NCBI GenBank assembly: GCA_027382625.1
Contig: JAJKFJ010020904.1
Span: forward strand, 248,001 to 312,000
DNA length: 64,000 nt
Reading direction: 5' to 3'
Origin: Tetmemena sp. SeJ-2015
Taxonomy: Eukaryota > Ciliophora > Spirotrichea > Sporadotrichida > Oxytrichidae
Position numbers and translations under genes: made by a program
Notes under the pieces: generated by a model
Seen by the model: only the letters and a program-made list of their open reading frames with translations
The model's database searches: none
Told to the model about the DNA's origin: nothing
Part shown: in pieces, positions 39,551-41,305 of the stretch
How the letters are laid out: every line of letters begins with the position of its first letter
Numbering within the stretch: the stretch's first letter is position 1

Positions 39551-40790
39551 TCAGTATCTGTAAGTGGAGGGCTTGAAGGGGCCAGCCTGGGGGACGGAGA
39601 TGTACTCAGCCTGGTCGTTGGTGAGTTCAGTGAGCTCAGCACCGAGGGCAGCCAAGTGGAGCTTAGCGACCTTCTCGTCGAGCTCCTTAGGGAGCTAAGT
39701 TTACGTAGACCTTTCCATTCTCGTACTTGTCGGTGTTTCTGTTCTCCCAGAGGTCGATTTGAGCAAGCACTTGGTTAGTGAATGAGTTGGACATCACGAA
39801 TGAGGGGTGACCGGTGGCGCAACCGAGGTTGAGGAGTCTTCCTTCGGCGAGGATGATGACGGAGTGTCCATCGGGGAACTCCCACTTGTCGCACTGGGGC
39901 TTGATGTTGATTCTCTTGATGCCTGGGTAGTTCTCGAGTCCCTCCATGTCGATCTCGTTATCGAAGTGACCAATCTCAAAGTCTCATAAGACAATTCAAT
40001 CACAGCTATGAATCGATGAATGTTTCCAACGATGGCGTTGTTCTTCATCTGGGCCATGTGGCTGGCCATGATGATGTTCTTGTTGCCAGTGCAGGTGATG
40101 AAGATATCAGCGACGGAGACGACTGACTCGATCTTCTTGACTTCGTAACCTTCCATGCAGGCTTGGAGAGCGCAGATGGGGTCGACCTCAGTCACGATGA
40201 CTCTAGCACCGCATGCCTTCATAGCGGAGGCACAGCCCTTGCCGACATCTCCGAATCCGCAGATAACAACTCTCTTTCCAGCAATCATGACATCGGTGGC
40301 TCTCATGATTCCATCGGGGAGGGAGTGTCTGCAACCGTACACGTTGTCGAACTTGGACTTGGTGACTGAGTCGTTGACGTTGATGGCCTTGATGAGGAGC
40401 TCTCCTTTCTTGCTCATTTGGTAGAGTCTGTGGACTCCGGTGGTGGTCTCCTCTGAGACTCCGATGAGCTTGGCAGCCATCTTGGTCCACTTCTTCTTGT
40501 CTCCGTTGAGGAGCTCTTCTCTGATGATCTTAATGACCTCCTTGAACTCCTTGTTCTCGTATTGGTCGGGGTGGGGGATATCACCAGTCTTCTCGAAGAT
40601 GCGCTCGAACTTCACTCCCTCGTGGATGAGGAGAGTGGCATCACCACCATCATCGACCAAGAGGTCAGGGCCATCACCTTCACTTATAATCTTAGACCCT
40701 CTCTATTAAAAATGCTAAACTGATTGCGTGATCGGGCCATGTGAGCATTCTGTTGGTGCAGATCCAGTATTCCTCGAGGCTCTCTCCCTT
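39551..40790 (-). CDS. AHCY: S-adenosylhomocysteinase, MDS block encoding residues after the N-terminal third
   Basis: Encodes most of adenosylhomocysteinase, which hydrolyses S-adenosylhomocysteine to adenosine and homocysteine in the methylation cycle. Visible family motifs: [62 protein letters not shown], the NAD-binding [42 protein letters not shown] and the conserved C-terminal Tyr-Arg-Tyr before TGA 39551-39553. Three inserts interrupt it: 40680-40731 (pointer TC), 39972-40018 (pointer AAT) and a tiny one at about 39696-39705 that disrupts [12 protein letters not shown] by 1 mod 3. The block lacks a start codon: its 5' edge is the pointer TCTCTCCCTT at 40781-40790, the inverse of AAGGGAGAGA at 41296-41305, where the N-terminal segment ends on the other strand. 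Codon use is GC-richer than neighbours, as usual for a highly expressed gene. Confidence 0.9.
39972..40018. other. 47-bp IES in AHCY, pointer AAT
   Basis: AAT at 39972-39974 and 40019-40021. On the gene strand the junction reads [19 protein letters not shown], the highly conserved AHCY sequence; without excision the frame breaks after GNI. Confidence 0.9.
40680..40731. other. 52-bp IES in AHCY, pointer TC
   Basis: TC at 40680-40681 and 40732-40733. On the gene strand excision gives [18 protein letters not shown], colinear with homologues. Confidence 0.75.
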
Positions 40791-40986
40791 CTTTCTATTT
40801 CACCATCCTCTATCTACCTTTATATGATGAGTGCAAAATAGTATAGCTGTAGATAGAGCATGACGTGTAATTAAGTGTGACAGGTGGCAAGGAGATATTT
40901 GAGAGTGTAATTGCGAAATGCGATCATTATTAAATAATAACTCTAGCGATCATCACTTTAAGACAGATCACAAAACGCAACATAAA

Positions 40987-41305
40987 ATGGAAGGCTTTGA
41001 TTCACACGTGAAAGACATGTCCCTAGCCGAGTTCGGCAGAAAGGAAATCCAAATTGCTGAGGTTGAAATGCCAGGACTCATGGCTTGCAGAGAAGAGTTC
41101 GGAGGTGAGAGACAGGTTCTCAAGGGAGCCAAGATCTCTGGTTCACTCCACATGACCATCCAGACTGCCGTCCTCATCGAGACCCTCCAGGCCTGCGGTG
41201 CTGAAGTCAGATGGGCTTCTTGCAACATCTTCTCCACCCAAGACCACGCTGCATCAGCTGTCGTTGCTGCCAGAACTGCCAACGTTTTCGCCTGGAAGGG
41301 AGAGA
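40987..41305 (+). CDS. AHCY: S-adenosylhomocysteinase, N-terminal MDS in inverted orientation
   Basis: Start ATG 40987-40989: [20 protein letters not shown], the standard AHCY N-terminus. It continues through [55 protein letters not shown] (substrate-binding region), [11 protein letters not shown] and ends ANVFAWKGE. The last 10 bases, AAGGGAGAGA (41296-41305), recur inverted at 40781-40790, exactly where the following residues (KGESLEEYW) begin on the minus strand. Alignment to plant-type AHCY leaves no missing or duplicated residues at the junction. The two parts therefore form one gene only after inversion and joining at the pointer during macronuclear development. The 196 bp between the blocks (40791-40986) would be IES and/or 5' flank. 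Confidence 0.9.

Follow-up and report, generated by a model that had tools for sequence, protein, structure and literature searches.

An AHCY gene read as scrambled, with its first MDS inverted, in a hypotrich germline genome

In hypotrich ciliates, the DNA polymerase alpha gene is inverted and has many more MDSs than the gene described here, which encodes the essential enzyme adenosylhomocysteinase (S-adenosylhomocysteine hydrolase, AHCY). For TEBP-alpha, an odd-then-even order has been described in Oxytricha nova, and guidance by parental templates has been described for Oxytricha. The actin I gene of Stylonychia lemnae has its N-terminal MDSs (MDS 1-2) inverted with respect to the rest, with a long pointer at that place (PMC2394655, section 4), and in this it resembles AHCY; however, actin I of S. 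lemnae and Oxytricha trifallax also requires a permutation of other MDSs, whereas AHCY requires one inversion only (PMC2394655). The scrambled hypotrich genes compiled in section 4 of PMC2394655 have pointers of 3-19 bp, and the long scrambled pointer (11 bp) and short conventional pointers (3 bp) of AHCY follow the trend given there; this has its exceptions, as in S. lemnae actin I, where one conventional pointer has 10 bp and one scrambled pointer 6 bp (PMC2394655). Scrambled genes account for 15.6% of the genes of O. trifallax and 13.6% of those of Tetmemena (PMC9797194), and inversions for 21.4% of the scrambled cases of O. trifallax (PMC10901763). Among four spirotrichs, inversion is defined as a genome-wide class by differing MDS orientation, as found in AHCY, a gene unmentioned in sections 17 and 19 of that paper (PMC10901763). 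Given these proportions, the AHCY locus adds to a known class.

The window analysed here, meaning the whole stretch of 64,000 nucleotides, covers positions 248001-312000 of contig C1983 (407,110 bases) in an assembly of 146,216,379 bases and 5,213 contigs. Its AHCY segments lie on opposite germline strands, with the first quarter of the gene turned against the rest, the arrangement of inversion-type scrambled genes (Table 1). The plus-strand part, from 40987, ends in VFAWKGE, and the remaining protein is encoded in pieces from 40791 to 39551 on the minus strand, where new residues resume from 40780 downwards. The earlier note had located both parts correctly. The inverted pointer that it reported at the junction is present there; its length is 11 bp (GAAGGGAGAGA), one base having been missed in the 10 bp first given.

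Table 1. Coordinates of the AHCY locus in the window.
Feature	Position	Strand	Remark
Coding part of MDS1 with the pointer: residues 1-106 of AHCY plus base 1 of codon 107	40987..41305	+	
Pointer copy 1, GAAGGGAGAGA, end of MDS1	41295..41305	+	11-bp inverted match
Spacer between the inverted parts, 195 bp, AT-rich	40792..40986	.	GC 0.344
Pointer copy 2, GAAGGGAGAGA, at the start of MDS2 and in reverse orientation to copy 1	40781..40791	-	
MDS2, starting with the shared pointer at base 3 of codon 103 and reaching the first IES	40731..40791	-	
Probable conventional IES, 58 nt including one GAT pointer copy	40676..40733	-	AHCY fit
MDS3, central AHCY, NAD-binding part	40019..40675	-	
Conventional IES, 47 nt including one ATT pointer copy	39975..40021	-	AHCY fit
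MDS4, C-terminal AHCY, ending PSTYRY and stop TGA (39553-39551)	39551..39974	-	
Small break of the reading frame within C-terminal AHCY	39690..39707	-	

Both strands leave the AHCY protein at the pointer. Within the plus-strand open reading frame (40903-41736), the best stretch stops no more than 12 residues from the pointer in 45 of 49 PDB chains, and the alignment continues past it in the other four (6uk3, 7r3a, 7r37 and 9ifb), with a tail that aligns only loosely in 6uk3, the one alignment printed of those four. As read from these alignments, the AHCY protein is not continued on the plus strand beyond the pointer; the minus strand ahead of 40791 likewise leaves it. As in scrambled genes, the DNA between the MDSs is AT-rich, with ~0.34 GC in the spacer and the two IES-like stretches (the latter at 0.345 and 0.34) against 0.533 in MDS1 and 0.534 in the joined gene, and the flanks have 0.338 (41306-41500) and 0.30 (39340-39539). 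The 5' leader of MDS1 should lie in the spacer, together with the site of telomere addition at the 5' end. In the same spacer, at 40908, lies the word TAATTGCG, which recurs at 11173. About 150 bp beyond the AHCY stop there is an 18-bp perfect palindrome, TATAATTGCGCAATTATA (39386-39403); it was considered as a chromosome-break motif and dropped, being unique in the genome at up to one mismatch.

When the two parts were joined in silico at the pointer, with removal of the 58-nt (GAT) and 47-nt (ATT) stretches and bridging of the frame break at 39,690-39,707 by removal of 4 nt, a 479-residue AHCY was obtained. It matches 49 distinct AHCY-family PDB chains, 10 of them in one stretch and 39 in two; in these 39, the best stretch begins at residue 183-190. 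The best structural match, 3ond, covers residues 3-479 in a single stretch (732.6 bits), and 1v8b aligns to residues 6-479; the chains are presumably from lupin and Plasmodium, respectively. The match to these two and other chains is full-length and includes the C-terminal YRY, which places the product in the AHCY family. The protein runs through the pointer join uninterrupted, and both alignments printed (3ond and 1v8b) are free of gaps at the junction, in agreement with the earlier statement that no residue is lost or duplicated there. In the joined frame, TAA and TAG codons are absent, and CAA and CAG occur seven times each. Elsewhere in the window, an open frame with an RCC1 match (43971-45443) has 32 TAA/TAG among its 490 codons, from which it follows that TAA and TAG are read as glutamine.

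The boundaries of the two IESs were picked by their fit to AHCY from at least 19 in-frame candidates each, taken from those with the longest repeats (60 and 80). For the ATT stretch, the 47-nt excision was the sole one among the candidates listed that yielded one particular 11-residue protein string, and there is no GT..AG at the exact edges of 39975-40021. The GAT boundary is less certain, because a 43-nt GT..AG intron-like reading near 40676-40733, which gives WPDHAISDGPDLL, is equally in frame; judged by sequence, this stretch is probably an IES, with a boundary that is not unique against the intron reading. The small break at 39,690-39,707, separate from the junction, allows many in-frame removals, of which 1 nt (giving KVYVTQLPK) or 4 nt (KVYVKLPK) best keep the conserved residues. 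Either a tiny IES or an assembly error at the base level may underlie it; the former is possible since a 4-nt IES between MDS 6 and 8 is on record in the TEBP-alpha gene of O. trifallax (PMC2394655, Table 3).

An 11-bp inverted pair is not rare in itself, and its significance lies in its exact placement at the protein junction. Within 39300-41700, such pairs are the AHCY pointer and one palindrome. In the zero-gap register, runs of at least 11 occurred in 1.6e-5 of 1,000,000 random draws over both strands of the window, a frequency that, by arithmetic on the number of draws, is explained by the two true places, namely MDS1 and the end of MDS2. A chance origin of the AHCY inverted repeat was rejected on the zero-gap register at the junction.

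All three AHCY profile matches in the assembly fall at this locus, and no second AHCY locus was found in the 146-Mb assembly by profile search or by a DNA search with the 2.4-kb locus, which returned only itself. The two parts are thus not fragments of two genes, an origin that the earlier note had named as a possible refutation and that these searches exclude. The same result means that no second allele supports the inversion, as AHCY lies on one contig only, despite duplicate contigs elsewhere in the assembly. In C2293 and C3715, actin-family matches have equal scores and are always offset by 17,826 bases, indicating duplicate or allelic contigs.

The germline and lineage context was examined through the telomere end-binding proteins. 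TEBP_beta has five matches in the assembly, including four further TEBP-beta-like ones (L005-L008), and in the best of the five, 136 of 138 aligned residues are identical to a solved chain, with both mismatches near the end. This chain is presumably from Sterkiella nova, which is placed in Spirotrichea, Stichotrichia, and from the near identity the genome is assigned to Sterkiella (Oxytricha) nova or a species very close to it. TEBP_beta was absent in 14 control genomes, a comparison of little weight because those named are prokaryotes. For TEBP-alpha, 15 pieces were picked by their alignment to the solved chain, all on the minus strand of C3416 (L016 = C3416:1-9900, 7067-5126). With approximate residue labels, they form a first track of 1-29, 98-114, 126-178, 183-192, 244-250 and 266-277 and a second of 35-100, 112-127, 174-183, 192-244, 250-267, 274-283, 283-357, 361-438 and 440-495. 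From this alignment, TEBP-alpha is read as being in odd/even scrambled order on C3416, the order described for O. nova, and a similar two-track order is given for O. trifallax in Table 3 of PMC2394655. TEBP-alpha of Oxytricha is a scrambled gene of the same lineage; however, it is an odd/even permutation, with all 15 pieces on one strand here, unlike AHCY. C3207 carries another TEBP-alpha-like gene, which is no more than a paralogue.

Inverted genes also occur in the same assembly. On C2480, an actin gene has its start (MADKQTVVVDNGSGVVK, MADKQ...) on the minus strand (L026 3086-3036) and changes to the plus strand for its next part, which runs from L026 1507; where the two parts overlap in the protein (GVVK), they share the 12-bp word GGAGTCGTCAAG in inverted form. 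This is the same inverted-start layout as in actin I of S. lemnae. It was seen by reading this one locus, the profile search not having reported the inverted start. Among the 65 actin-family matches, the pieces of each gene are on a single strand by eye, and the both-strand actin matches on C2293 and C3715 were rejected as inversions, being two different genes ~15 kb apart. DNA polymerase B has 24 matches; eight contigs have at least two, on a single strand in six and on both strands in C4161 and C1943. In C4161, the minus strand carries profile positions 3-85 and 98-171 and the plus strand 155-239, and C1943 is its mirror image; these both-strand pieces are the likeness to the hypotrich DNA polymerase alpha gene, and the two contigs are perhaps allelic copies of a scrambled polymerase alpha gene. 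The opposite-strand pieces are ~3.5-3.7 kb apart. The identity of TEBP-beta, the odd/even order of TEBP-alpha and the inverted actin start together indicate a hypotrich germline host, and the spirotrich germline placement, which the earlier note drew from the AHCY locus only, is upheld by them independently.

Inversion is not general in the window, since none of the three genes with Pfam matches at 54-64 kb has pieces on both strands. A gene with a PF22669 (phosphatase-like) match extends over three plus-strand frames at 57132-58063; these are collinear, so that it is probably cut by conventional IESs. A proteasome beta-subunit gene (61716-62549, plus strand) perhaps has, by eye, an in-frame 30-nt IES ahead of TAVAYGSM. 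Twenty scans of single open reading frames elsewhere in the window, with one frame covered twice, are by their nature blind to inversion.

Here it is proposed, with a probability of about 0.95, that AHCY is a scrambled germline (micronuclear) gene of a hypotrich whose first MDS is inverted and would be set right by programmed MDS inversion. The earlier note had also arrived at MDS inversion, and the full-length joined protein and the single AHCY locus support that reading. MDS1 would lie inverted in the germline, head to head with the rest of AHCY, and during macronuclear development, recombination between the inverted 11-bp pointers, presumably guided by RNA, would flip the intervening 503 bp, or alternatively a parental template would serve for joining MDS1 to MDS2. 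A single flip is the simplest route: MDS1 would come to stand ahead of MDS2, one pointer copy would mark their join, the 195-bp spacer would become the 5' leader and end region of the final nanochromosome, and the second pointer copy would be lost with the discarded flank. The two conventional IESs would be excised at their 3-bp pointers, probably before the inversion, and telomeres would be added; in the genes studied in PMC2394655, removal of conventional IESs usually precedes inversion.

The order of TEBP-alpha, the inverted actin start and the opposite-strand polymerase B pieces make programmed MDS inversion the best reading of AHCY, and since the assembly contains inverted genes of the expected form (actin and polymerase B), AHCY can be read as the same type. 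The actin start and the polymerase pieces also count against an assembly inversion, in which the germline gene would be on one strand and the assembler would have flipped a 503-bp piece between short repeats. Such an error would go with the fact that the assembly has AHCY on this single contig, and some base-level errors may exist, as at 39,690-39,707; however, an 11-bp repeat would be unlikely to mislead an assembler, the contig is 407 kb long, and an uninverted gene would leave the upstream inverted 11-bp coding copy unexplained, so that this origin is considered very unlikely.

Two other explanations are hardly credible. A decayed or broken AHCY from an ordinary evolutionary inversion, with the working gene elsewhere, would be in line with the three frame breaks of the minus-strand part, but two of the three are healed by pointer-bounded excision, the product has a full-length match to known AHCYs and the assembly yielded no further AHCY. 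Nothing was found in favour of separate transcription of the two parts followed by RNA trans-splicing, beyond the intron-like 43-nt GT..AG reading at another break; such splicing leaves the 11-bp word duplicated at the junction unaccounted for, and the 47-nt stretch at 39975-40021 has no GT..AG at its exact edges.

Within the programmed MDS inversion preferred here, it is possible, though improbable, that AHCY represents a single flip between short inverted germline repeats, that is, a minimal, freshly scrambled gene. In that case, the germlines of different strains or sister species may hold both the inverted and the uninverted allele, the parental template would correct both AHCY alleles, and the birth of scrambling would have been caught in one step.

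No report of a scrambled AHCY in Oxytricha was found in the literature, and in the wider literature on ciliate macronuclei and scrambling, the enzyme was named, among the matches listed, in one review only. The AHCY inversion is thus apparently unreported, and it is a clear but ordinary instance of known ciliate scrambling that leaves existing knowledge of the process unchanged. What it adds is a conserved housekeeping gene, single-copy in the assembly, that would need a single inversion besides two or three routine excisions, which makes AHCY a clean substrate for studying the roles of pointers and template RNA in inversion and for dating the origin of this inversion.
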